This document shows, one piece after another, positions 10,862-30,991 of a stretch of 33,154 nucleotides of DNA (within the stretch, counting starts at the first letter, position 1; each line of letters begins with the position of its first letter). Source of the stretch: a virus; IMG/VR virus record IMGVR_UViG_3300043787_000178, positions 1 through 33,154 of that record, one strand, 5' to 3'. The notes under the pieces were generated by a model. It was given only the letters and a program-made list of their open reading frames with translations, did not search any database and was not told the origin of the DNA. The position numbers and the translations under genes were made by a program.

Positions 10862-11659
10862 TGAGGGTCTACGGGTATTGTCGGGGAAATGGGGAAGGAT
10901 TGAAATATGTCGGGATGGGATTGTTGTGGAGAAGTTGTGGGAATCGAGGGTTGGCGGTTGAAAGGGAGGGAAAACGCAGGACGGATGTTACGTATACCGC
11001 CGTGCCGTCATTAAAAACAGTTCGTTTTCCTTACGATGAGCACCGCGATTATCGTGTTAATTTCATCTTCGGTGATCACTTGGTTGACACGTGAACGATT
11101 GATTACTTTGGTTAGATTTAGCACGGTGATGGTAGCGCGTCTAATAGCCACAACTTCTTGTTACCACGCAAATGCTAGTGAATCTGCTTGCGGTTTCACT
11201 TGAGGTGCCCTATTATTATGCAAGCGAGCATTACGCGCAATACGCTGTGCGCGTGTTACATATGTGATGCTTGTGAACGGTTGTACTGCTCAAACGAGCA
11301 GATGACACGCCTTAACGAGAGGTTGTGTTGTGAGAACGGCACGTGGACGGCAAGCGAACGTTGTCGTGTGCAAGGGCACACAATCCCACCTGTTCGTCTC
11401 CCATTCCTTCTCTTGACGGCGTGAATGCAAAGAGCGTTCCGCCAATGGCATGGCGGGGGACGTGAGTATAGTAGGGCAAGTGGAATGCCTCGTGATGCCC
11501 AGAGTGCACCCGCCTGCTTTACTCTTCCCACATCTCAGCTTCGGTCGATCTAGTCAATCAGGGTCCCGTTTTGGACCTCAAACAGGAGCAAGGCCAGAAT
11601 CTTTATCAAAAATAAATGGCCGTCAGTCTTCTAGACCGACAGCCATTTTCAACGTGCAC
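10862..11659. other. Gene-poor region between dnaG and the tRNA fragment
   Basis: I see no supported gene in about 800 bases. The stretch carries three perfect small hairpins: ACGCGCA/TGCGCGT at 11233-11254, CTGCTC-AAAC-GAGCAG at 11286-11301, and GTGTGC-AAGG-GCACAC at 11366-11381. It ends in a terminator-like hairpin at 11614-11648. TGTGGAGAAGTTGTGGG at about 10925 resembles the TGTGGA words upstream of dnaB. A structured RNA is possible but not shown. Confidence 0.5.
11614..11648. terminator. Hairpin terminator beside the tRNA fragment
   Basis: AAATGGC (11614-11620) pairs with GCCATTT (11642-11648), with an inner GTC/GAC extension. A and T runs on both sides make it usable in either direction. 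It lies 11 bp beyond the 3' end of the minus-strand tRNA remnant, as expected for the original tRNA terminator. Confidence 0.6.
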
Positions 11660-11712
11660 TGTAGCGGCGGCAGGAGTCGGACCTACGATCCTCCGGATTA
11701 GAATCCGGTGCT
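11660..11712 (-). tRNA. Degenerate 3' half of tRNA-Arg(TCT), probable attachment-site remnant
   Basis: On the minus strand the anticodon arm reads CCGGA-TTCTAA-TCCGG with TCT at 11702-11700, followed by a T arm GTAGG-TCCGACT-CCTGC and a 3' acceptor-like CGCCGCTACA. The anticodon loop has six nucleotides instead of seven, and the T loop has TCCGACT instead of the TTCGA form. I find no D arm or 5' acceptor strand upstream. A 3' tRNA half at the edge between host-like and phage-like DNA is what integration into a tRNA gene leaves behind. It is unlikely to be a working tRNA. Confidence 0.55.
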
Positions 11713-11923
11713 GGTCGGCAACGGGGGCCTCGCGAAAGGTAATTCACCCAATGCGCTCCGCTCAGCTTTCCGCAGTCTCCGGAGCGTAAGGGAAAAGGCT
11801 GAGCACCCGCAAAAGTACACGGCCTGCGTCCCTCACAGAACTGACAAGTAATCTTTCGCTGGCGGGCTGTATACAGGGAAGTCACCCCTCTCTAAGTCAT
11901 TGAAAACAAAGAGAAAAAATCCC

Positions 11924-16588: not shown

Positions 16589-16673
16589 GCCGTTATGGTG
16601 GAATTGGTATACACAAGGGACTTAAAATCCCTCGGCTTTGGCCATATGGGTTCGAGTCCCATTAACGGCACCA
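16589..16673 (+). tRNA. tRNA-Leu (anticodon TAA), CCA encoded
   Basis: A complete cloverleaf of 85 nt: acceptor GCCGTTA/TAACGGC, anticodon arm AGGGA-CTTAAAA-TCCCT (TAA), a long variable arm with GGCTTTGGCC, T loop TTCGAGT and an encoded CCA. Phage-encoded tRNA-Leu(UAA) fits the many TTA leucine codons in this AT-rich operon, against a GC-rich host. Confidence 0.95.
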
Positions 16674-17204: not shown

Positions 17205-17469
17205 TGAGATGTATAGTGTTACAAAAGCTAAAAATTCAGATTATGCAACACCAAAAGAGGCACTACGTAATTTTAAGATGTTCGGTGCTTTTGGTGTTCT
17301 TGTTAGAATATCAGATAAAATATCAAGACTTAGAACAGTATTAGAAGATAAACGTGAATTTGCTGTAAAAGAAACTGCTTTTGATACCGTGACAGATATG
17401 GCAGTATATAGTGTAATTCTTAGAATTATAATGGAAGAAGAAGCTAAAGAAAATGAGTTTAATAAATAA
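17161..17469 (+). CDS. Nmad1/DUF1599-domain protein
   Basis: The 102 residues carry the DUF1599 (nucleotide-modification-associated domain 1) signature: AKNSDYATPKEALRNFKMFG, then GVLVRISDKISRLRTVL, then AFDTVTDMAVYSVILRIIM. The family is named for its occurrence near phage base-modification genes; its biochemical role is not settled. Here it overlaps the exonuclease/UDG-like gene by 17 bp, next to polymerase, SLOG and MazG-type genes, so a link to nucleotide-pool or DNA modification is plausible. Start ATG 17161. Confidence 0.8.
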   Translation: MTQEQYLKRFQEIIDEMYSVTKAKNSDYATPKEALRNFKMFGAFGVLVRISDKISRLRTVLEDKREFAVKETAFDTVTDMAVYSVILRIIMEEEAKENEFNK

Positions 17470-18580
17470 CTTCGGTCCCGAAACAAGTCCTATTTGGGTC
17501 ATACTTGATTCTCCTTATGACGGAGATTCGGATATTGACCCAGTTACACAAATTGATAAATTAGGAATAATATTGAGTGGTGGTTATGGATATAATTTTA
17601 AAAAGATTTGGAAGATGGGTGGTCTTTCTCTTAGTGATGTTCACATTCGATCTAATCGCCCTTGTATCGGAGCATCGTATGTTAAAGAGAATGTACTTAG
17701 CAATCTTCTTGGTGATATTGACAAATATCATCCTACTTTTATTGTTCCACTTTCTGATGAAGTTTTGAATTATTTAATCCCACACACAACACAAGCCAAA
17801 GAAAAGAATTCATCCCTTGGAAAGTGGGCTGGTTCCTTATTAACATCTAAATATATTTCATATCCACATTATATAATAGGGAGCCAGCCACCAGATTGGG
17901 TTACGAAGAATTGGGCCTATAATGAAATCCAAGCCTTCATAGATTTTGGACATGTCCGTGAGGAATTTGAATACTGGACAAAATATGGAACTCTTAATCC
18001 ACTACCTAGACGTAATCTTATTACCCAACCATCTTATTCCGATCTTGTTGGTTATTTGCATGACTGTCTTAATGTTAGTATGGTGTCAGTCGATATTGAG
18101 ACTATCCGACCTAAGAAGGGTAGTACTTATTATAATATTAATTGCGGGTATCCTTACACTATTGCTCTTGCTAAGTCTCCCAAAGATGCAATAAGTTTCT
18201 CTTTCTGGGATTATACACCAGAACAATGTGTACAGATTTGGAGAATGTTAAATGAGATTCTTAGTAAAGTGCCTCAGATTGGGCAAAACTATTTTCTCTT
18301 TGATAGTCATTATCTTGAAGCATTGGGATTTAGAATTTGTTTATCTTCGTGTTTCGACACCCTTATACGACACCATATATTATGGCCATCCCTTAAGCAC
18401 GCACTTCATTTTCAGACAAGACAATACACAAGAGAACCGTACTACAAAGATGAGGGACGAAACTTCAATGTAAAACGTAAAACACAGTTCATGCTATACA
18501 ATGCCAAAGATGCAGCCGTTACTTTTGAAATTTATGAAGAACAAGAAAAAGAGTTTAAAGAACGTCCACATATTAGGTAA
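17453..18580 (+). CDS. UDG-like domain fused to DEDDy 3'-5' exonuclease (polymerase proofreading half)
   Basis: The 375 residues combine two domains. Residues about 10-150 resemble the uracil-DNA-glycosylase (family 4-like) domain known at the N-terminus of SPO1-type DNA polymerases: IWVILDSPYDGDSD, GGYGYNFKKIWKMGGLSLSD, HPTFIVPLSDEVLN. Residues 205-375 are a DEDDy exonuclease: SVDIET (D214, E216), GQNYFLFD (D284), YNAKDAA (Y349, D353). In known phages this pair continues directly into the polymerase, but here the gene ends after the exonuclease and the polymerase is a separate gene at 19579. The UDG-like part lacks an obvious catalytic GEAPG motif, so it is probably structural. The start overlaps the previous gene by 17 bp. 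Confidence 0.78.
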   Translation: MSLINNFGPETSPIWVILDSPYDGDSDIDPVTQIDKLGIILSGGYGYNFKKIWKMGGLSLSDVHIRSNRPCIGASYVKENVLSNLLGDIDKYHPTFIVPLSDEVLNYLIPHTTQAKEKNSSLGKWAGSLLTSKYISYPHYIIGSQPPDWVTKNWAYNEIQAFIDFGHVREEFEYWTKYGTLNPLPRRNLITQPSYSDLVGYLHDCLNVSMVSVDIETIRPKKGSTYYNINCGYPYTIALAKSPKDAISFSFWDYTPEQCVQIWRMLNEILSKVPQIGQNYFLFDSHYLEALGFRICLSSCFDTLIRHHILWPSLKHALHFQTRQYTREPYYKDEGRNFNVKRKTQFMLYNAKDAAVTFEIYEEQEKEFKERPHIR

Positions 18581-19496: not shown

Positions 19497-19613
19497 ATGT
19501 CCGGCGTTAGAAAACCTATAGAAGAACGTTTTGCCGTTAAGTATAAAATAGAAGATAAAGGATATTTAACTCCATTAAGTGAGTATAAAATTGCAAAACT
19601 TAATAACAAGTAA
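19497..19613 (+). CDS. Very short ORF upstream of polymerase
   Basis: A 38-residue frame (MSGVRKPIEERFAVKYK...), starting at ATG 19497 just after the previous stop and overlapping the polymerase start by 35 bp. It may be a small protein or a coupling ORF for the polymerase. Evidence is limited to its position and compatible composition. Confidence 0.35.
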   Translation: MSGVRKPIEERFAVKYKIEDKGYLTPLSEYKIAKLNNK

Positions 19614-21117
19614 TTATGAACATAGATTAGCATTTCATTTCCATAATATAGATCGGAGAGGTCTACTTATCCATCCTGACCTAAAAGAACAAGCTCGTCT
19701 TAAATGTGAAGAAGAACTAACAAACAACTGTGCTTATCTTAGTAACTTCTGGAATACAGAAGTCTATATTGGCAGTGAAAATGCTCCAGAAAATCCAACA
19801 CGTCCGACAATGAATCTGAATGCAAATTCAGGGAACAATACTGTTCTGATAAATCTTACTCGTCTTGGATATAACGTCCCTAAGATTCGTAAGAAAAATA
19901 TCGAAACAGACTCCTATGAACTAGAAGAAAGTGCGGGAGAGTTAGCATTAGTAAAATTATTAGCCGACCCATCCCGATGGCCCTCTCCTTCTGCTGGAGA
20001 GGGCATTAAAAAGTTATTGGAAACGAGAGAAGTAATCACTTTTAGGAATAGGTATATCAATGCGCGACTTTATCATAACATATATTTTGCCAATCATAAT
20101 GTGGCAGCTACGGTTACTGGGCGTAGAGGAAGTAAAAAGACTATCTTTGGATTCGGAGGAAATGACCAGAATTTCCCGTCCAGAGGAAGATTATCTGATA
20201 TATGGAAAGAATGTGTTGTGGTACGTCCGGGTAAACTCTTCTTCTTTGTTGACCAAGTAAGTGCCGAGGATTGGCCAGTACAAGCATTGTCGGAGAATCA
20301 CACAGCTTTAGCACAAATGATTGCTGGTGTTAATAGACATTATATTTTTGCTAGTCAGATTTTTGGTTTATCCGTAGATGAGTTAAAAAAGAAACGTTCT
20401 AATAAAGACGGTTCTTACACAAAAGAACAACAAGACGAAGCAGAGATGCAGTATTATATGGGAAAGAAGGCCCGACATAGCAACAATTATGGTATGCAAC
20501 CAACTACTTTCTCCGAAGCACTTGCAAAAGAAGGCGGTTTTACTGTTCCAATAGAAGCTTGTAAAAACATTCTTAGTATCGTAGACAGGATCGACCCAAA
20601 TGTTAAACGAATCTTTCATAAGTATATCCAAGATAAACTTGCCAACTCCGCACATATGCTTCAAACACCATTGGGACGGGAAAGAGCCTTCCTTGGATTA
20701 CGTAGTGGTGAAAAGAATTACTCGATTCTTAATGAAGCATATTCTTACGTCCCCCAAAGTACAGTCGGTGATAATACGGGACTTGCAGTTTGCGAACTCG
20801 AAGCATGTCACAATTATATACTCCAAGATGGACATGACAGTTTATGTCAAGAAATACCTGATAACGAACAGACACTCAGAACGGTATTTAAAAACACTGC
20901 AAATGCGTTTAAGAGAAGGATTACGTTTCATAACGGAGTAGAGATAGAGATTCCGATAGAAGGTCAAATTGGGTTTAATTGGAAAGATAAGATTAAGTTA
21001 GAAGAGTATAGCGAAGATTGTTTAATGAATGCATATAAGGAACTAAAGGAGAAATATGGAAATAGCAGAACTACAACAAGTAGCATTCAACAATGCCAAG
21101 AAATTGGGATGGTGTGA
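19579..21117 (+). CDS. Family A DNA polymerase, polymerase domain only
   Basis: The 512 residues have the polymerase part of family A enzymes. TGRRGSKK and NDQNFP (179-200) are the conserved TGR and N-Q-F/IP region. Motif A is VDQVSAEDWPV (D225). Motif B is KKARHSNNYGM (R299 to Y304), with the variant RHSNNYG as in SPO1-like polymerases. YVPQSTVGD (390-398) precedes motif C, GHDS (H419, D420). There is no exonuclease domain; that function sits in the separate gene at 17453. The start is a GTG at 19579 that overlaps the small ORF upstream. The C-terminal end overlaps the MazG-like gene by 62 bp. This is the phage replicase, copying its own genome with the upstream exonuclease as a probable partner. 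Confidence 0.93.
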   Translation: MSIKLQNLITSNYEHRLAFHFHNIDRRGLLIHPDLKEQARLKCEEELTNNCAYLSNFWNTEVYIGSENAPENPTRPTMNLNANSGNNTVLINLTRLGYNVPKIRKKNIETDSYELEESAGELALVKLLADPSRWPSPSAGEGIKKLLETREVITFRNRYINARLYHNIYFANHNVAATVTGRRGSKKTIFGFGGNDQNFPSRGRLSDIWKECVVVRPGKLFFFVDQVSAEDWPVQALSENHTALAQMIAGVNRHYIFASQIFGLSVDELKKKRSNKDGSYTKEQQDEAEMQYYMGKKARHSNNYGMQPTTFSEALAKEGGFTVPIEACKNILSIVDRIDPNVKRIFHKYIQDKLANSAHMLQTPLGRERAFLGLRSGEKNYSILNEAYSYVPQSTVGDNTGLAVCELEACHNYILQDGHDSLCQEIPDNEQTLRTVFKNTANAFKRRITFHNGVEIEIPIEGQIGFNWKDKIKLEEYSEDCLMNAYKELKEKYGNSRTTTSSIQQCQEIGMV

Positions 21118-21392: not shown

Positions 21393-22619
21393 GTGCCCCG
21401 TATACTTAAGAAACCTTGGTTAGATGCGTTTAGTGATTATTGTCAAGGAATGGAAACGCCACGGGAGTATATTAATTGGGTAGGGATATCAGTTCTATCA
21501 TCAGCATTGAAACGACGATGTTACATCTGGTATAGAGGAATAAAGTTTTATCCTAATCAATATATAATCCTAGTCGGCCCACCCGGTATTGGAAAAGGGG
21601 AGAGTATAAATGCTGCGACGAAAATAGCGAATGAAGTAAAAGCAATTAATTATATTAAGGACTGGGTTACTCCACAGGAAATTATAGAAGAGTTAAGCGC
21701 GGGCTTTCAGCATATCAATTTAAAGCCCGGACAGGTGATAACAACTAATGTTGTACAAGATCACACATGTTGTATCATGGCTCCGGAATTGGCAGTATTT
21801 TTACAGCAGTATGATAATTTGCACAGCCTTATGTGCGCTTGGTGGGATCAAAATAAGTTCGATTACAAGACTAAGAACAAAGGAAAACATGTTATTGAGG
21901 ATATGTCAGTTTCTCTTCTTGGTGGCTGCGTCCCTGACTACGTTCGGAGTCTTAGTAAAGATCGACTCGCTCCCATTACTGGTGGCTTTACTGCTCGTAC
22001 TATATTTGTTTATGCTACTGAAAAGTTTCAACTTATAGATAATAGTTTTGGTGCTCCAAACGGTAGTAAAACAAAAATCCATGATGACTTAGTAAATGAT
22101 TTACGACATATCACTACTCTAACGGGCGAATTAAGGATAAGCAAAGATGCCGAAACACTCTGGCAACAAGTCTACCAAGAACACAACAAACGGGGAGCTA
22201 TTGATTCTGACGCTAGTGCGAACTTTAAAAGCAGAATCTCCAGTCATATTATCAAAACGGCAGTTACAATCAGTATTTCTGACTCCGATAACCTCGTCAT
22301 CACAAGAGATCACCTTGACACAGCTATACGACTTATTGAAGGGATCAGAGATAAAGTTGATATTGTGTTTAGATCCATCGGTGAAAGTCCTCTTGCCGTG
22401 ACGATGGATAAGGTGATTAAGTTGGTGGATATGAAGGGAATAGTACTTTATAAGGAGTTGTTAAAATATGTAATGAGAGACGCTACACAGGATCAGTTAA
22501 ATGGTATATTACAAGTTCTCGTAAAAACCGGAATGATTGTGGAAAAGATTAATGTAAATAGCCAAGTAGAATATTGGAGTACAAATTTTATCAAAACACA
22601 AGGAGCAGGGAATCCATGA
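21393..22619 (+). CDS. DUF3987-type helicase/ATPase
   Basis: The 408 residues carry Walker A, GPPGIGKG (about residue 57), after a YINWVGISVLSSALKRR entry helix, and a Walker-B-like segment in CCIMAPELAVF. Then come MSVSLLGGCVPDYVRSL and LAPITGGFTARTIFVYA, all as in phage DUF3987 proteins that act as replicative helicase or primase-helicase modules. A C-terminal winged-helix-like end (VTMDKVIKLVDMKGIVLYKELL) may bind DNA. The start is GTG 21393, with the stop overlapping the next start (ATGA at 22616). With the polymerase, exonuclease and DUF669 protein it completes a replication set. Confidence 0.82.
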   Translation: MPRILKKPWLDAFSDYCQGMETPREYINWVGISVLSSALKRRCYIWYRGIKFYPNQYIILVGPPGIGKGESINAATKIANEVKAINYIKDWVTPQEIIEELSAGFQHINLKPGQVITTNVVQDHTCCIMAPELAVFLQQYDNLHSLMCAWWDQNKFDYKTKNKGKHVIEDMSVSLLGGCVPDYVRSLSKDRLAPITGGFTARTIFVYATEKFQLIDNSFGAPNGSKTKIHDDLVNDLRHITTLTGELRISKDAETLWQQVYQEHNKRGAIDSDASANFKSRISSHIIKTAVTISISDSDNLVITRDHLDTAIRLIEGIRDKVDIVFRSIGESPLAVTMDKVIKLVDMKGIVLYKELLKYVMRDATQDQLNGILQVLVKTGMIVEKINVNSQVEYWSTNFIKTQGAGNP

Positions 22620-23209
22620 GTAAGAAAGTGAATATTGTTTTAGAAGAAATTGATCCACAATGGGCCAACATTAAGGGCCAATATCTTATTTCCCCCATCT
22701 ACGGTGGCAGTGGACGTGTTCTAGTACAAGAAGATCCATACAAATCAAAGTATGAATGTTCCAAATGTCATGGAGTAGGCCACTTAGGAGAAGTTTGTAA
22801 ATGGTGCCTTGGAACTAAATTTGAAAAGGGCAAAGAAGAAAATGGTTACTGTCGTGATTGCACCGTTGGCGCAGATAATAACGCGGCAGGAAAAACATTA
22901 GGTCATGTAGCATGTGACTTATGTCATGGTACAGGCGGTTCAATTGTAGTACCGGATGAAAATCAACGAAATACTACTACTGGAGATATTCTTGCTATAA
23001 GTAATAGAGATATATTAGAAGTCAGGGTTGGTGATAAAGTAATGTTTACAAACTATTCAGGTAGTCCCTTTAAATTCATGGATATAGATCTTCGTATAAT
23101 TATAGAACGTGATTTATTAGGTAAAGTAAAACAACTTAAACATAACGTAGAAGGTCTTAATGAAGGGAATTTTGCTGATTTAGAAAATACTGGAGTACCG
23201 AGGGAATAA
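22616..23209 (+). CDS. GroES-fold protein with DnaJ-type zinc finger inserted
   Basis: The 197 residues look like a GroES (Cpn10) barrel split by a DnaJ zinc finger. The N-terminal piece SGRVLVQED (32-40) matches the start of GroES (DRVLVK-like). The C-terminal piece IVVPDENQ, GDILAISNRDILE, VRVGDKVMFTNYSG, LRIIIERDLLGKV (110-171) follows GroES strand for strand, including the VGD turn and the DIL end. Between them, where GroES carries its mobile GroEL-binding loop, are four CxxC motifs: C48-C51, C61-C64, C79-C82, C100-C103. Two carry the DnaJ CxxCxGxG form (CHGVG, CHGTG), the others a degenerate one. A chaperonin co-factor is the most likely role; phage T4 gp31 is the known precedent for the GroES part. 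The start overlaps the helicase stop (ATGA). GroEL itself is not in the window. Confidence 0.75.
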   Translation: MSKKVNIVLEEIDPQWANIKGQYLISPIYGGSGRVLVQEDPYKSKYECSKCHGVGHLGEVCKWCLGTKFEKGKEENGYCRDCTVGADNNAAGKTLGHVACDLCHGTGGSIVVPDENQRNTTTGDILAISNRDILEVRVGDKVMFTNYSGSPFKFMDIDLRIIIERDLLGKVKQLKHNVEGLNEGNFADLENTGVPRE

Positions 23210-23890: not shown

Positions 23891-26140
23891 TTAATGCGCA
23901 GTCCAGCTACTACCATTACATAAAGCCTCTACGGTATTACTACCACTTCCTACGATATTAGCATTATATGTTACTGTAGTAGAATCTGTAACAATAGCTG
24001 TCTGTCCCTTTAAATTTCCTACGCATGATGGTAAATTAGCAAATACTTGTGGTACACTTCCTATTAATGATATTGCTGTACTTCCAAGTGATGAACTTGG
24101 AAATAATGTCGGCCCTCCAGCATTTGTCCCTGCCCCAGCAGCACCATACCATGAAGCTACTACATATTGAGTAACACCATTACGATTTCCAATAGTTACT
24201 TGTATTTGAGGAATAGAGGAACTATTTAGTTTTATAGTAGGACTGGTAAATACTGGTTGGTTGTTATAAAAATAATTTACTGGCACATCTAAAGTACAGG
24301 ACACAGGTTCAAAGACTGCACAAGAAACATCTAGAATCATAGTAGCCATTCTATTAGTATTATTAGGCCAGCTAAGAATTAAACGTCCTTGTAAATCTCC
24401 TGATTGTCCTGTTCCTGGTATGGCTTGTGCTATAACATAAGTTCCATCTGCTGAAATATTTTTATAACCTGTAACAATCATCGGTGGTTGTTTCTGTAGA
24501 TTAGAAGCTGTAGTTCCAGGATAATCTAAAGCTAACCAAGGTTCAACAGAATAAGTTCCTCCAGATGTTATATTTGGTATAGCGATACCATATAATCCTG
24601 CTCCTCCAGTTATCTGAATATTTCCTTCAGCTTGTACATTTCCAGTAGAACCTACTGCTATAGCATTAGGATTCGATCCTACAAACTCACCAAAAACATG
24701 AAGTTGACTTTCTACTATTTGCCCATTAATTGTAAGAAAAGAAGATGGAGCTACGTCCATATTACCTTTTAAATTAATCGTTCCATGATAAATAGTAGCT
24801 ACATTATCTATAAGTAGTCCGATTTGATTTGCTTCAATATTAAACCATAAATCAAAATCACTATATCCAAAACTAAAAGTTCCTCCATTTATAGTTAAAT
24901 GTAACTCATTTGTATTTCCAGTTATTGTTCCTCCTATACCATAACCAAAATGGACATTATGCATATACGTCCGCTCTGTCCATCCACCGGAAATATTTTC
25001 TAGTAGTACTCCATTAGCTCCTGTTCCCCAAGTATTTACCGCTGTTCCAGTACATCCTGATATTGTAAGATCCTCCCATGTAGAACCTTGAAGTGTCCCA
25101 GAATGGATACAATTTATAGCTGACGATGTTCCTACTAAGGAAAATCCACGTAATACTCCAGCTTTTTCTAATGTAAATGGCACCATTTGCCATCTAATAC
25201 CATCACCTGAACCAGTATAATTTAATACAGTTAATAAACTTCCTGCACCTATTAAAGATTGTGAAGGATTTAACATATTTATTGTTGTAGTATATGTATA
25301 TGTCCCTGCGGGTATTTGTACTATACATATATTATTACAATTTGAAAAAGCAGCATTTACCCAAGCACCTAGATCACTCCCTGAACACCAAGTAGGTGCT
25401 ATAGAGGTACTACATATTGTTGGATTATATATACCATTATCTGTTCCATTTACACTATTGGATGTAAATAATGTATTAGATGTATTATTCCATGCAAAAT
25501 AAGGACTAGCACTAAATCCTCCACTACCATTATTATAAGGTATTTGAGTACTATTTCCTGGAACTCCAAGATTTCCAAGTGCCTGCCATGAATTAGCAGG
25601 ACATGGACCTACATAACATCCTTTAAATAATCCAGAAGTAGTATTCCAATAAATACTCCCTGTACCACCATTAGCTTCATTATCTGAATAAGCTCTTTGC
25701 AAAGTAGGACCTGTGTTCACTACAGGTACTGTGAGATAACTACTAAGACTTGCACTAAGATTTTGCGATGTTCCTGTTACAAATATTAGTCCAGTACTAC
25801 AGTTTGCTGTTGTGGCATTAGGGCATATAATAAAGTTCCAACGGGAACCAGCGGGTGTTAATTTGGCATTATCATCGAGAGATATAGTGAAGGTTCCTAA
25901 ACTGTTTGTAGTAATAACATTATTTGGACTTGCTATAGGAACACCACTATTAAGCAAAGTTGCCGGATTACCAAAAGGGGGAACTATATTAATAGTAACC
26001 GTAGCATTACTCCATACCTGTATACTAGAATCAGTAAGGGTAGCAGTAACACTAGTACAGTTTCCGACACACTGACTATAAAGATTAGATGAAATAGAGA
26101 ATAGTATAAAAAGAAAAGTAATCCTTATAATATTTTTCAT
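23891..26140 (-). CDS. Secreted beta-helix/tail-spike-like protein
   Basis: About 749 residues from the ATG at 26140. It opens with a signal peptide, KNIIRITFLFILFSISSNL. A beta-domain then reads SVTATLTDSSIQVWSNATV and GTFTISLDDNAKLTPAGSRW, followed by SDNEANGGTGSIYWNTTSG. A right-handed beta-helix/pectate-lyase-like part follows (IPAGTYTYTTTINMLNPSQS, GSGDGIRW, and many short Gly-rich strands), the usual fold of phage tail spikes that bind or cut polysaccharide. The C-terminal end is rich in Thr, Ser and Cys. The frame is open to 26179, but the earlier Met lies in the preceding gene; the stop of that gene (26142) and this ATG are one base apart. A Sec signal on a tail-spike-like protein is unexpected. 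Confidence 0.75.
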   Translation of the reverse strand: MKNIIRITFLFILFSISSNLYSQCVGNCTSVTATLTDSSIQVWSNATVTINIVPPFGNPATLLNSGVPIASPNNVITTNSLGTFTISLDDNAKLTPAGSRWNFIICPNATTANCSTGLIFVTGTSQNLSASLSSYLTVPVVNTGPTLQRAYSDNEANGGTGSIYWNTTSGLFKGCYVGPCPANSWQALGNLGVPGNSTQIPYNNGSGGFSASPYFAWNNTSNTLFTSNSVNGTDNGIYNPTICSTSIAPTWCSGSDLGAWVNAAFSNCNNICIVQIPAGTYTYTTTINMLNPSQSLIGAGSLLTVLNYTGSGDGIRWQMVPFTLEKAGVLRGFSLVGTSSAINCIHSGTLQGSTWEDLTISGCTGTAVNTWGTGANGVLLENISGGWTERTYMHNVHFGYGIGGTITGNTNELHLTINGGTFSFGYSDFDLWFNIEANQIGLLIDNVATIYHGTINLKGNMDVAPSSFLTINGQIVESQLHVFGEFVGSNPNAIAVGSTGNVQAEGNIQITGGAGLYGIAIPNITSGGTYSVEPWLALDYPGTTASNLQKQPPMIVTGYKNISADGTYVIAQAIPGTGQSGDLQGRLILSWPNNTNRMATMILDVSCAVFEPVSCTLDVPVNYFYNNQPVFTSPTIKLNSSSIPQIQVTIGNRNGVTQYVVASWYGAAGAGTNAGGPTLFPSSSLGSTAISLIGSVPQVFANLPSCVGNLKGQTAIVTDSTTVTYNANIVGSGSNTVEALCNGSSWTAH

Positions 26141-26141
26141 A

Positions 26142-28706
26142 TTAGAATCCATCACATCCAAATACAATAGTATCTCCACTAGTTGCAGTCATCTTAAGAT
26201 TTACACCAGTCGTTGTAGTGGCTGATTGCCTAATAGCTACAGTAGGAACATTTGTTAAATCTGAATACCAACAAACAAATCCATTAGCTGGGGAAAATGG
26301 CAAAGAACTAAAATTAAGGCTAATAGTACAAGCAGAACTAGTTCCTATTACAAAAGAACCATAAGTAGGACCACCCTTCAAAGTTGTTTCAGAACAGCCA
26401 TTATTAGAAGTAAATAATGTCCCTACAGATGTGTATAATGCTGAAGAATTTATAGCAAGAACTGGTCCACTCATTCCAGAGCCATCGGTATTTATACATG
26501 TATTCTCAATTATAGGATGTGTTAAATTCCCATGCTCATACGTAATCATAGCATCTGAGCATTTGGCTCCGGTGATATTATCTATTAATGCATTCCCAGA
26601 CCCTATACCGAAATCAACACTATCAAGTCTTATATTAGTACAAGTAGAACCAAAACCAGCAGTTCCTATAGTAATTCCTACTCCTCCCGTATTAAAAGCA
26701 TGAAAACCAGTATTAAATGTTCCCGATGTATTATAGGTATTATAAGCCTCTTGAAATGAAGCCTGTCTAGAAACATCACCACATACATCTATATCAGTAG
26801 CAAAATATTCTGCATGTAAATGATCAAATTGAAAAGTAGAACCGGCAATACAAAAGGCACATCCTTGTGTAGCTCCACTACCTACCATCTGTGGAATACC
26901 TGAACCACCACCTACAGACTTATCGGCTATACTTATTGTTATATGTCCTTTAAATCTTCCTGGTCCTTGATTATTAGCAATACCTGTAACAAGTAACCCC
27001 ATAAAATTATTATTTTGACATGGATCAGGTGATATTGTGGCTACAGAAGTACCACCACCACAGGACATAAGTGTATTAATAGGAACTGTCCCTGTAGAAC
27101 ATCCTGCACTTCCAATATTACAAGAACATCCACCTGTCTTAGTACAATATTCAGGATTTATATTTCCACTAAAAGGCCCAGAACCCATAGAATTAGTATC
27201 CCCACTAGCTGTTCCTCCGTAAGCTCCTGATTGGTCCCAACGAGCATAATAGTCCATACAATTAGCAATATGCATACCACCTGGACCAAAGCCCGTTTCT
27301 TCTTCTCCTTGTGCTTGAACAAAACCTCCAGAGGCAGGAAAGAAGTGGCAGTTAATTACATAACCATCCATATAAGCATCATATGCTCCGCCTCCGCCTC
27401 CTGTTCCTAAAGCTACTACTGGAGTTTCTAAATTAGCAGTTCCAGTACATCCTGAGTTACATGATCCTGTGACACCACTTACAACCCATAATGTAAATAT
27501 TTGTGGAGAAGTTGTTTGTGTTACCGCCTTTACAAACCAAGCATTATTCTCAGATACTACATTACTTCCATATATGTGTATAATGCGATTTGTTTGTAAA
27601 GCATTTAAATCTGTTGTAGTAACATCAAAAGGTGTACCTGAAACTGTTACAGTAGCTACATTACCTGAGACAACAAAACTTGTTAATGTCCCTACCTGTG
27701 CTTGAAATCCACCATTAAAACAAATATCTAAAGCTGGATTACAAGGACCAATAAAAGAATTTGATGGATTTTGTAAATTTGAATTCCCTCCCATTCCTAC
27801 CATATGGACAGTATTAGGAATTTCAAAAGTACTCATACCATCTAACTTCATCCAATGATATCCTAAATGACTATCTTCAAATATCCCACTCATTCCAGTA
27901 AGGGGCTGTCTGGAGCATGTTTGTATTCCGGTCATATCATCTATAATATGAAGAGACACACCACCAGCACCGAAAGTACTAACAATATTGTGTATTGCCA
28001 CACATTCATCAGTATATAATGAACATACTGTACTAGACCCACACCATGAGGAAACGGCTATGGAATAATTAAGTGGATCTAAAGATGTAGCTAATAGTCC
28101 TCCCCCCACCGGTTGTCCTTGTGCCATATTATTAACAGCAGTTCCACTTGTACTAATCCAATTAGTATTAGTAGAACAAGGATTAGCTATACAAAGGTGA
28201 ATAGTATTATCAGTAAGATTATAATAAGCACTCCCTAACCCAGACACAGCCGCTTCTGGATTGGCAAAGAGTCTTGGATATTGAAAAGCACTTGCTGCGA
28301 TAGTAGGGAGAGTATTATTTATTTGAGTTGATAAATTAATAGTTGATCCATATACATCCTGTAATGATGTACTACATGAATTATTCGCCTGAGCACAGAC
28401 AGTAAAAGCCCATAAGGAACCAGTAGGAAAAATAGTGTGATCATCAGTGAGAGTAATTGTAAATGTCCCTGAGCCACTCATTGTACTCTGTACAACACAA
28501 GGAAGTGAACTACCTCCCATATTTACACCATTTACTTTATACTGATTACATGCAATAGTTCCAGTAATAGGTGTAAGAGTAGCTATTACTGTCCCATTAG
28601 CGTAAGGAAAACCATCTGGACTTACAATGGTGGCAGTAACAGATGTACCGAAAGAAAAACCACTTAAAAAAAGTAATAAACTACAAAGAGTAAACAGTTT
28701 TCTCAT
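26142..28706 (-). CDS. Secreted paralogue of the tail-spike-like protein
   Basis: The 854 residues start with a signal peptide, MRKLFTLCSLLLFLSGFSFG, then SVTATIVSPDGFPYANGTV and GTFTITLTDDHTIFPTGSLW. This is the same N-terminal domain as in the next protein downstream, including a repeated pattern with AYYNLTDNTIHLCIANPCS (compare SIYWNTTSGLFKGCYVGPCP). The rest is Gly, Ser and Thr rich with many cysteines (CGGGTS, CSCNIGSAGC), a long beta-rich receptor-binding or adhesin-like body. Paired cysteines suit an exported, oxidised protein. The 5' end overlaps the preceding gene by 26 bp. Confidence 0.75.
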   Translation of the reverse strand: MRKLFTLCSLLLFLSGFSFGTSVTATIVSPDGFPYANGTVIATLTPITGTIACNQYKVNGVNMGGSSLPCVVQSTMSGSGTFTITLTDDHTIFPTGSLWAFTVCAQANNSCSTSLQDVYGSTINLSTQINNTLPTIAASAFQYPRLFANPEAAVSGLGSAYYNLTDNTIHLCIANPCSTNTNWISTSGTAVNNMAQGQPVGGGLLATSLDPLNYSIAVSSWCGSSTVCSLYTDECVAIHNIVSTFGAGGVSLHIIDDMTGIQTCSRQPLTGMSGIFEDSHLGYHWMKLDGMSTFEIPNTVHMVGMGGNSNLQNPSNSFIGPCNPALDICFNGGFQAQVGTLTSFVVSGNVATVTVSGTPFDVTTTDLNALQTNRIIHIYGSNVVSENNAWFVKAVTQTTSPQIFTLWVVSGVTGSCNSGCTGTANLETPVVALGTGGGGGAYDAYMDGYVINCHFFPASGGFVQAQGEEETGFGPGGMHIANCMDYYARWDQSGAYGGTASGDTNSMGSGPFSGNINPEYCTKTGGCSCNIGSAGCSTGTVPINTLMSCGGGTSVATISPDPCQNNNFMGLLVTGIANNQGPGRFKGHITISIADKSVGGGSGIPQMVGSGATQGCAFCIAGSTFQFDHLHAEYFATDIDVCGDVSRQASFQEAYNTYNTSGTFNTGFHAFNTGGVGITIGTAGFGSTCTNIRLDSVDFGIGSGNALIDNITGAKCSDAMITYEHGNLTHPIIENTCINTDGSGMSGPVLAINSSALYTSVGTLFTSNNGCSETTLKGGPTYGSFVIGTSSACTISLNFSSLPFSPANGFVCWYSDLTNVPTVAIRQSATTTTGVNLKMTATSGDTIVFGCDGF

Positions 28707-29066: not shown

Positions 29067-29726
29067 TTATGTAAGAATAATATTAGATTTTGGAGTTACA
29101 CCACCACCTGCTGTTATTTGATCGAAGATATTCTGTGTTTGTATTGTATAAACACCATCAGACATTACCCAATTCTCCCACTGTACCATACTTAGCCCTA
29201 AACCATAAAAATGTTTTTCTAAAGTATTCCCCCAGAAATAATCTAACTCTACAACTAAAATTTCACCTAGATTACCAATCTTCATTAATGTAGGTAATTT
29301 AACCTGTGTAATAACATCTCCACCTAAATTTTCTGGTTTATTATTTATTTGTTTTCCACCTTGAAAAGTATTATATGTTGATATAGATTGCAATGGTCCA
29401 GGAGGATTTTCTGTATCTAAATAACGATAAGACCATCCTATACCACCTTTTCCATTAGGAAATGTGGGGCTATTAAATTGTTTATAACTAGTAAAATCCG
29501 TCCAGCCATTTGGACCTTCAGTATAATTTTGATATATATACTTAGAATCATAAGCATCAATATCCCAAGGAAATCCACCAATTCCCTTGATTAACCATAA
29601 CCAACCTTGTTGCCAATAATTATAAACTGGATTAACTCCAGCTTGTTTGCTTGCTATATGATTAATACTATTAAACTGTGGTCCTGTTGACATAAAATTT
29701 AACATATCATAAATCATCTCAACCAC
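29067..29726 (-). CDS. Hypothetical late protein (219 residues)
   Basis: The residues are rich in aromatic and Gly, Asn and Pro, with WQQGWLWLIKGIGGFPWDID and GWSYRYLDTENPPGP. It resembles a small extracellular or virion-associated beta protein, but I recognise no family. The frame starts inside the ATP-grasp stop region (overlap 13 bp). The alternative start is MIYDMLNFMS, three codons later. Confidence 0.55.
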   Translation of the reverse strand: MVEMIYDMLNFMSTGPQFNSINHIASKQAGVNPVYNYWQQGWLWLIKGIGGFPWDIDAYDSKYIYQNYTEGPNGWTDFTSYKQFNSPTFPNGKGGIGWSYRYLDTENPPGPLQSISTYNTFQGGKQINNKPENLGGDVITQVKLPTLMKIGNLGEILVVELDYFWGNTLEKHFYGLGLSMVQWENWVMSDGVYTIQTQNIFDQITAGGGVTPKSNIILT

Positions 29727-30991
29727 CCCTGACTATCAAGAATACGATATCTCTCCGTAATACTCTTCTCTAAGTCCGTCCTATACTGCGCATCCGGTAT
29801 TTGTATCTTCTTCACCATCTCCGTCATTTTCCCAAACACCCCTTGTAATGAACTACTGGACTGTATAGGAACGCACACAAACCCTGACACACCAGCAGTA
29901 ACAAGAGAATCATGTTTATCAAGGCAACAATCATATAGAAAACAATTTTTAATACAATCATCTTCTTCTAGTCCTTCTATCGGCACTCCATCTGGATGGT
30001 GGTTCTTAATCTCCGATGGATACGGAGGAATAGAGATACGAGTTCCGGCAGCATACGTATTAGATAAACGATATTCAGGCATACCACCAGTTGCGATACT
30101 ACCAAGAAAATCTCCCAAGCCACCTTCAAATAACGAAAATAACGTTGAAGTACAATCATAACCAAATCTAGGTGTCCATTCGAGGCCATATAATTTACTG
30201 TCACTAACAATAGAATTTAGGTCTATATACCCACGAAATCCATATTCTTGTAAAAATTCTTTAGTCTTTCCTAGCCCCTCCCGAAATACAAATGGTGGAT
30301 TGTCATTATCATAAATGAACTCCAAATTCCCAGCACATCCAGTATTCGGGCCTCTATTATCATTCATCAACTTCTTCTCTTCCAATGTCCCACTAATCAA
30401 GAAGAACTCTTCCCCATTAAACCATGCTTCGGTGCTAATCTCGGTCCCCTGAACAACTTCCTGTAAAATGAACTCTGCCCCTTTGGAGATTCCACCGAGC
30501 TTATCGAGATAGAGCAACATGTCCTCGGGAGACTTACTAACATACGTCGAAGCTGTGTCCTGATCCTGCCCACCATTAGGTTTGAACACAAATGTTTTAT
30601 TAGTTTTCTTGATAAACCGTTTGGCAGTTCCAAGGTCATTAAATGTTTCATAAAAAGGAACTCCTATGTCACACTGTTCCATTACTTCAATACCAAGAAG
30701 TCTATTATCCTCTAGTTCACTATGTATATCTCCATCCCCAAGACAAGGGACTCCGAGTTTACAAACTTCTTCTGCAATATGCGGACGGCCAGTGAGATCA
30801 AATAGTACAAGATCATATTTCTTAAAATCAGGTTTTGCCCTGAGTGGCGCTTTTATTATGCCACTCAGGACATTGCTGTAATCATCATAGTGTGATTGTA
30901 ACCATATATCAACCTGATGGCCTTCTTCTTGTAATTGAAGAGAAAACCAGCTTCCGTACATTGTATAAGTTACAATTAATATTTTCGCCAT
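29714..30991 (-). CDS. ATP-grasp enzyme, GARS/PurD-like
   Basis: The 425 residues have the ATP-grasp plan of the phosphoribosylglycinamide-synthetase type. The N-terminal domain is Rossmann-like (AKILIVTYTMYGSWFSLQLQ, YDLVLFDLTGRPHIAEEV). The ATP-binding part has TFVFKPNGGQDQDTAST and ILQEVVQGTEISTEAWFNGE. The catalytic site shows NDNRGPNTGCAGNLEF, like the GPNTGGMG of PurD, and YGLEWTPRFGYD supplies the acidic metal ligands. Such enzymes ligate a carboxylate to an amine. Lying among virion-protein genes in a phage is unusual. The substrate cannot be told, and no purine genes are nearby. Start ATG 30991. Confidence 0.85.
   Translation of the reverse strand: MAKILIVTYTMYGSWFSLQLQEEGHQVDIWLQSHYDDYSNVLSGIIKAPLRAKPDFKKYDLVLFDLTGRPHIAEEVCKLGVPCLGDGDIHSELEDNRLLGIEVMEQCDIGVPFYETFNDLGTAKRFIKKTNKTFVFKPNGGQDQDTASTYVSKSPEDMLLYLDKLGGISKGAEFILQEVVQGTEISTEAWFNGEEFFLISGTLEEKKLMNDNRGPNTGCAGNLEFIYDNDNPPFVFREGLGKTKEFLQEYGFRGYIDLNSIVSDSKLYGLEWTPRFGYDCTSTLFSLFEGGLGDFLGSIATGGMPEYRLSNTYAAGTRISIPPYPSEIKNHHPDGVPIEGLEEDDCIKNCFLYDCCLDKHDSLVTAGVSGFVCVPIQSSSSLQGVFGKMTEMVKKIQIPDAQYRTDLEKSITERYRILDSQGWLR

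Follow-up and report, generated by a model that had tools for sequence, protein, structure and literature searches.

The 33,154-nucleotide stretch of viral DNA from IMG/VR record IMGVR_UViG_3300043787_000178 (positions 1 to 33,154; hereafter the window) encodes a putative zinc-finger co-chaperonin of 197 amino acids, in which a predicted Cpn10/GroES barrel carries a cysteine-rich module resembling those of DnaJ and BSD2 (hereafter the finger) inserted in the N-terminal limb of its mobile loop. A first-pass annotation, made from the letters alone, had reported the open reading frame (ORF) and its four CxxC motifs, and these were found exactly at the residues it gave, with GxG at the motifs starting at 48 and 100. 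The start of the gene shares four bases with the end of an upstream DUF3987 gene (21393-22619). The gene and its parts are as follows:

22600..22605, plus strand: AAGGAG, Shine-Dalgarno-like, read in the sequence
22616..23209, plus strand: putative zinc-finger co-chaperonin gene, 197 amino acids and stop; ORF read, Cpn10 match in 23 of 23 family members
22706..22741, plus strand: residues 31-42, GSGRVLVQEDPY, predicted to form the first strand of the barrel and the beginning of the mobile loop; strand predicted at 34-39, Cpn10 structural alignment from model residue 32, alignment A8
22745..22933, plus strand: inserted cysteine-rich module, about residues 44-106; missing at the same spot in fingerless sister phages, BSD2/DnaJ profile matches
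22757..22768, plus strand: CxxC 1, CSKC, residues 48-51, with GxG; conserved in relatives
22796..22807, plus strand: CxxC 2, CKWC, residues 61-64; conserved in relatives
22850..22861, plus strand: CxxC 3, CRDC, residues 79-82; conserved in relatives
22913..22924, plus strand: CxxC 4, CDLC, residues 100-103, with GxG; conserved in relatives
22934..22975, plus strand: residues 107-120, GGSIVVPDENQRNT, the part of the GroES mobile loop that is kept after the finger (tip and C-terminal limb); aligned with typical GroES and fingerless relatives, low model confidence at 109-118
22976..23131, plus strand: predicted remainder of the GroES barrel, residues 121-172; Pfam Cpn10 match and structural alignment to Cpn10

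The outer pieces, which had been assigned to a GroES barrel by the annotation, are a Cpn10/GroES family barrel predicted with confidence from sequence and model. Residues 106-171 matched Pfam Cpn10 with 37.3 bits (cut-off 21.1; E 2.8e-9), and the protein was also matched by PHROG 3188 (co-chaperonin GroES, 8.3e-7) and by a chaperonin-10 of known structure (3nx6, 5.4e-6). All 23 members of a family alignment (A4), the window's included, matched Cpn10 at E up to 0.01; further, phrog_37414 (204 positions, function unknown) matched four of the 23, at best with 7e-6. An AlphaFold2 model of the whole protein, built on A4, showed a mean predicted local distance difference test score (pLDDT) of 70, with values of about 90 in the barrel blocks, about 57-81 in the finger blocks and below 50 at residues 109-118, as expected for a mobile loop. 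When this predicted fold was compared with solved structures, the first 15 rows were all Cpn10 chains, T4 gp31 included. The match with Mycobacterium tuberculosis Cpn10 (1p3h_A) reached Z 9.4 (root-mean-square deviation (rmsd) 1.7, 67 residues aligned, model residues 32-173) and that with T4 gp31 Z 7.5 (rmsd 2.7, 69 aligned, 10% identity over the shared fold). Since the structural alignment starts at residue 32, the segment N-terminal of the finger would also belong to the barrel. A Foldseek search of viral proteins with the whole model returned nothing at 0.001 or less, its best match being an 87-residue GroES at 1.1e-3.

The cysteine-rich piece had been described as standing in place of the mobile loop. 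Alignment with fingerless relatives corrected this: as read from the sequences, the loop is interrupted in its N-terminal limb, not replaced, and its hydrophobic tip follows the finger intact. Natural fingerless relatives were used here in place of an artificial joined sequence with the finger deleted. Alignment A8 combined seven fingered proteins with six relatives lacking the finger and two plain phage GroES, and both flanks aligned across the three kinds of protein. At the insert site, the fingerless sister phages read EDGFK-YGGQILIPETAKRRPTTG with no insert, a fingered relative EDEFKSGYEC...CNGKGGILVVPDVSQRRPSTG and the window protein EDPYKSKYEC...CHGTGGSIVVPDENQRNTTTG; the insert separates the N-terminal limb of the loop from its hydrophobic tip, and the window tip GGSIVVPD aligns with GIVLP of typical GroES. 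The tip was hydrophobic in 30 of 30 distinct fingered sequences; for 24 of these the search pattern had demanded it, whereas the six found via the capsid gene had been recovered without that requirement.

As judged from sequence conservation, the zinc-finger co-chaperonin is a real phage family. Scans of viral contigs with the window protein, and then with a two-row alignment, gave two relatives, one 48% identical and the other in a related phage record (G001) with 99.9% DNA identity over the 10.6 kb compared. A degenerate pattern (last CxxCxGxG plus loop tip) yielded 10 stretches, six of them true, and a six-row alignment search yielded 10 loci. A relaxed pattern retrieved 30 stretches from the viral contigs and the fusion was encoded in all 30, one being cut at a contig end. 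Removal of six with identical cores left 24 distinct sequences, and omission of the cut one (L033) gave the 23 members of A4, which are 22-66% identical to the window protein. In A4 the first and last CxxC were invariant and the middle two nearly so; as the relaxed pattern required the last CxxCxGxG and the loop tip, the invariance of these in the 30 matches is by construction, while the pattern had left CxxC 1 to 3 and the N-terminal strand free. All four CxxC were present in 27 of the 30 distinct fingered sequences, the window's included; of the remaining three, L024 and L033 have two each, L033 being truncated by the end of its contig, and L162 has three. Spacing between the second and third motifs ranged from 13 to 58 among these 27. 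The survey of phage homologues that the annotation had proposed thus returned the same insert in 30 of 30 pattern matches and in six further relatives found through the capsid gene. In the homologous frame of L045 (804-1529), an extra CxxC pair lies upstream (CIQC...CILC), possibly an additional N-terminal zinc ribbon.

The reading frame itself appears constrained. Between the window gene and that of L045, amino-acid-changing sites differed less (pN 0.22) than silent sites (pS 0.73, near saturation); with G001 there were zero base differences. The finger was less similar than loop plus barrel in comparisons with L045 (52% vs. 75% identity) and L014 (35% vs. 54%), and not so with the third relative compared, G036 (41% vs. 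34%).

Searches outside the viral contigs returned no further fingered protein. In genome_contigs (one genome per species, 84,980 species), the relaxed DNA pattern gave 0 stretches, and a scan with alignment A3 gave 12 candidates with no relative among them. Against the INPHARED phages, P0001 matched nine weak records, none spanning 80% of the query, and L011, L030, L026 and L042 likewise matched no record spanning 80% of the query. Of the five INPHARED records inspected, L047, L048 and L049 encode GroES without a finger, and L051 is known by annotation only. The fifth, from a huge uncultured phage (LR745206; L050, 559-1986), encodes a protein that ends in a long run of CxxC repeats and has no GroES part. 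Among plasmids there were two annotated GroES, whose matches spanned 34% of the query. Several long viral Cpn10 models (174, 183, 200 and 304 amino acids) and phrog_13932 (200 positions) may share the architecture.

With regard to the finger itself, the assignment of the inner piece to the DnaJ type held in part: profile likeness was recovered, whereas the cut-off of the DnaJ_CXXCXGXG family (PF00684) was never passed. The window protein scored 15.3 bits against a cut-off of 32.7 (Pfam E 0.024), and neither the 8 relatives scanned nor 15 records reached the cut-off (best 29.9). Among the 23 members of A4, the DnaJ domain was matched at E up to 0.01 by 12 and BSD2_CRD by nine. A profile built from 22 fingers found BSD2 as its best match (E 4.2e-6, in two half matches) and spanned all four motifs of Escherichia coli DnaJ (1exk, 2.9e-5); it also matched Embryo defective 2737, a CxxC protein (1.1e-4), and Anti-TRAP (0.0026), so that its specificity is limited. 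As a single sequence, the finger alone gave a best E of 2.5 against the PDB. A finger-only model (mean pLDDT 74) was compared with 37 chains; the five listed rows with Z of at least 2 were all DnaJ or BSD2, a weak match (best row Z 3.6, rmsd 5.3, 53 aligned). Foldseek returned no match under E 0.95 for this model, and no J-domain family was among the Pfam matches of the window protein up to E 10. Because the matches fall below family cut-offs, we call the finger DnaJ/BSD2-like and claim no membership. In DnaJ, zinc is bound by motifs 1 and 4 and by motifs 2 and 3. Four records with identical cores, the L024 group, have the first and last CxxC only, the middle pair being missing, a pattern that would fit two separate zinc sites of this kind. 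The module is probably zinc-binding.

Records related by their major capsid protein provided a view of the family that did not depend on the pattern. A search with this protein (alignment A7) gave 258 related stretches, and the best 80 of the 258 were kept. Among the records of 10 kb or more, 19 of 44 had a Cpn10 match (18 above the Pfam cut-off), compared with none of the 36 shorter ones. Each of the 16 records that reached 34 kb, a limit set after the table was seen, had exactly one, above the cut-off in 15 and below it in G052 (14.6 bits). Of the 19 Cpn10-bearing records, 11 carried a finger (G052 with three CxxC) and eight did not. Six of the 11 had been missed by the pattern and are independent support for the family. 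The eight fingerless proteins (G042, G045-G049, G057 and G063) had flanks reading mostly EDxFK...IxIPxxxxRRxTTG; in four the Cpn10 profile match began at position 2 or 3 and ended at 92 or 93, and in a fifth it ran from 2 to 78. In a capsid-protein tree of 24 records, in which G052 and G030 (finger cut at the contig end) were scored as four-CxxC, the fingerless records formed one clade (100/99), placed among the fingered ones under midpoint rooting, and the three finger states required two changes, the minimum. Capsid proteins of this sister clade were 53-57% identical to that of G001. The direction of change, gain or loss of the finger, depends on the root of the tree.

The gene had been described as phage-encoded, and it does sit in the prophage part of the window. 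The first 11.6 kb of this 33 kb virus record are bacterial (about 57% G+C), genes for a replicative helicase, a sigma factor and a primase having been identified there by eye, and the remainder is phage DNA (about 36% G+C), 99.2% identical to G001 from base 11618 onward. Since bacterial DNA is followed by G001-like phage DNA, the window holds a prophage with one of its boundaries. Two features of this setting are:

11618..11720, no strand assigned: prophage boundary; G001 homology begins within what resembles the 3' half of a tRNA, its anticodon arm read by eye as TCT, with no tRNA predicted by ARAGORN
21393..22619, plus strand: DUF3987 / phage primase-helicase-like gene, upstream of and overlapping the co-chaperonin start; phrog_14296 1.9e-42, Pfam DUF3987 4.3e-16

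Neighbouring genes were clustered by BLAST on mechanical ORFs of at least 50 amino acids. In 21 of 27 neighbourhoods, which include near-copies (L024, L028 and L034; L026 and L037), a terminase-cluster gene followed the co-chaperonin gene within five genes on the same strand; the L024 neighbourhood was too short to place. Family searches identified the terminase large subunit in L030 (phrog_38, 6.9e-61), an SU10-type portal in the cluster next to it (1.1e-19) and a major head protein in L027 (phrog_371, 1.2e-12). In 5 of the 27 neighbourhoods the gene instead follows a DUF3987-type gene; G001, G003, G011 and G027, which cover both positions, have the terminase, portal and capsid set in common, so that the gene stays with one set of virion genes while its position changes. 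Each of the 30 finger records had one Cpn10 match; a second Cpn10 was looked for and rejected, none being found. GroEL was absent from all 30, which may be fragments, and from 21 of 21 possibly fragmentary records of a second check (14 of them new); none of the 16 capsid records of at least 34 kb had it. A GroEL partner of the phage's own was thus rejected, as none was present in the records searched, although fragments are no proof of absence, and with no GroEL there host GroEL would be needed.

Elsewhere in the window, a split-looking polymerase was observed, the ORFs 17453-18580 and 19579-21117 matching consecutive parts (552-831 and 838-1242) of phrog_17, a DNA polymerase family. A phage tRNA-Leu (anticodon taa) lies at 16589-16673; G003 and G011 carry tRNA-Gln and tRNA-Pro. 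On the minus strand, a 425-residue ORF (29714-30991) is conserved in L014, L045 and L038 (cluster c11), and the adjoining large ORFs 23891-26179 and 26142-28706 belong to one similarity cluster (c16) and have hydrophobic, signal-like starts; Pfam at E up to 0.01 gave no match for ORF 23891-26179.

The account that we favour, and hold to be reasonably probable, is that of a phage-specific co-chaperonin which acts as a lid on host GroEL for virion morphogenesis, a role suggested by analogy with T4 gp31, and whose finger adds a client contact or adjusts the dock. Seven copies would assemble into a GroES-like dome, and the retained hydrophobic loop tip would dock this dome on host GroEL, displacing host GroES. 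The client or clients would be phage-encoded, most likely virion proteins. With a two-zinc DnaJ/BSD2-type module in the N-terminal limb of each loop, the heptamer would have seven fingers around the entrance to the folding chamber, where they could touch the client, or the product as it emerges, and adjust the seating of the lid on GroEL. The protein may in this way bring clients to the host chaperonin or reprogram it, as the annotation had suggested.

Several observations weigh against this account. The predicted template modelling score of the whole model was 0.48. The relation of the finger to DnaJ lies below the family cut-off and is structurally weak, and other zinc families also matched members of A4, namely GRXCR1-2_C (8 of 23), zf-AtTam37 (6 of 23) and Anti-TRAP (5 of 23). 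In the window and four relatives (5 of 27 neighbourhoods), the gene is located one or two places behind a DUF3987-type gene and not beside capsid genes. The sister clade, of the same capsid family, does without the finger, which is therefore not strictly needed for that type of client. Finally, the major capsid protein has only about 316 amino acids and would scarcely require an enlarged chamber, a reason that has been proposed for gp31.

As to the task of the finger on such a lid, we rate client contact somewhat above pure spacing. It is a tentative possibility that the lid has its own Hsp40/BSD2-like client-binding module, with seven fingers that catch or receive one phage protein and so join selection, encapsulation and hand-over to assembly, the finger having been gained or lost as a unit within one phage group. 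Less probable, and in our opinion rather unlikely, is a rigid zinc-stapled finger that lengthens or stiffens the mobile loop and tunes GroEL affinity or lid height with no client contact. The longer loop of T4 gp31 (22 residues vs. 16 in GroES), with its larger or wider chamber (PMC6318259, PMC3012670), has been suggested to act in this way. The widely varying finger length, its lower conservation than that of loop plus barrel relative to the two nearest relatives (L045 and L014) and the L024 lineage with its first and last CxxC only would all suit a spacer. On the other hand, the four CxxC kept in 27 of 30 sequences go beyond what a plain spacer needs, the likeness is to modules that bind clients or chaperone assembly (DnaJ and BSD2), and relative to G036 the finger was no less conserved than loop plus barrel.

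Readings that dispense with GroEL, or with a folding role, fare worse. A holdase or assembly chaperone that forms a ring and serves phage structural proteins, in which the GroES dome merely scaffolds seven BSD2-like fingers independently of GroEL, would agree with the absence of GroEL genes from the records searched and with BSD2 as best profile match of the finger, BSD2 having been solved in complex with Rubisco large subunits; we consider it improbable, since the loop tip, which binds GroEL in GroES, is kept and hydrophobic and the fingerless sisters resemble ordinary Cpn10. Still less credible is a counter-defence role, whereby the finger would mimic host DnaJ and block chaperone-based phage sensing or divert DnaK/DnaJ clients. 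A bacterial nucleotide-binding leucine-rich repeat (NLR)-like protein, bNACHT25, does require host DnaJ to sense a phage coat protein (PMC12169576), but the window protein has no J-domain match, its finger is fused to a working-looking co-chaperonin and the gene is followed by a terminase-like one in 21 of 27 neighbourhoods. The weak single-sequence matches to DnaJ (Pfam) and in the PDB could also suggest that an ordinary phage Cpn10 had acquired CxxC motifs by chance or that its frame was misread. This reading, to which we assign a negligible probability, was refuted by conservation: the insert stands in one frame in 30 of 30 pattern matches and in the six relatives found without the pattern, its cysteines are conserved despite low overall identity, and pN is below pS.

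Set beside known systems, the window protein has the barrel fold, the Pfam family and the hydrophobic loop tip in common with bacterial GroES/Cpn10 (1p3h), which has no zinc module in its loop, whereas the window protein carries about 63 residues with eight cysteines in the N-terminal limb. The fingerless sister-clade Cpn10 belongs to the same phage group by capsid protein and has no insert. Plain GroES near virion genes is also encoded by phage DSL-LC05 (L049), where it lies near terminase and portal and lacks a finger; this short GroES (1474-1722) stands directly ahead of the portal gene and has an unusual loop region. Bacteroides phage DAC19 (L047) likewise encodes GroES without a finger and, by eye, a GroEL-like protein in the next gene. 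The DnaJ (Hsp40) cysteine-rich domain shows the same order of four CxxC with the CxxCxGxG pattern; by comparison, most spacings in the finger are shorter, a J-domain was not found and the match stays below the Pfam cut-off. BSD2 acts in Rubisco assembly after chaperonin folding. This chloroplast protein (6ekb) is a stand-alone DnaJ-type module and, unlike the window protein, has no chaperonin lid attached. In Helicobacter pylori, GroES (HspA) has an added metal-binding part as well, which reportedly consists of C-terminal histidines that bind nickel and is not an insert in the mobile loop.

We know of no zinc module in the loop of T4 gp31. Both gp31 and RB49 CocO are, like the window protein, phage-encoded proteins of Cpn10 fold used with host GroEL, and have a longer loop (PMC3012670 and PMC6318259). 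On host GroEL, gp31 takes the place of GroES in folding the major capsid protein (PMC3012670), a client of about 56 kDa (PMC6318259) compared with the capsid protein of about 316 amino acids in the window's phage group. Despite the longer loop and larger chamber of gp31, size alone may not explain its specificity (PMC3012670, PMC6318259).

In line with the first-pass annotation, which knew of no fusion with this architecture, a GroES lid with an inserted DnaJ-like finger appears to be undescribed: searches of the open-access literature turned up no apparent description of such a protein, most subscription papers lying outside this coverage. Docking of a co-chaperonin on GroEL is governed by its mobile loop, and a folded metal-binding insert at this place was not found described. 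Within one phage group, related Cpn10 barrels come as a natural series with no finger, with two CxxC and with four CxxC, which makes the contribution of the lid to client choice directly testable, a question left open by T4 gp31 (PMC3012670). A lid with a finger in its loop could thus show how viruses retune host protein folding.

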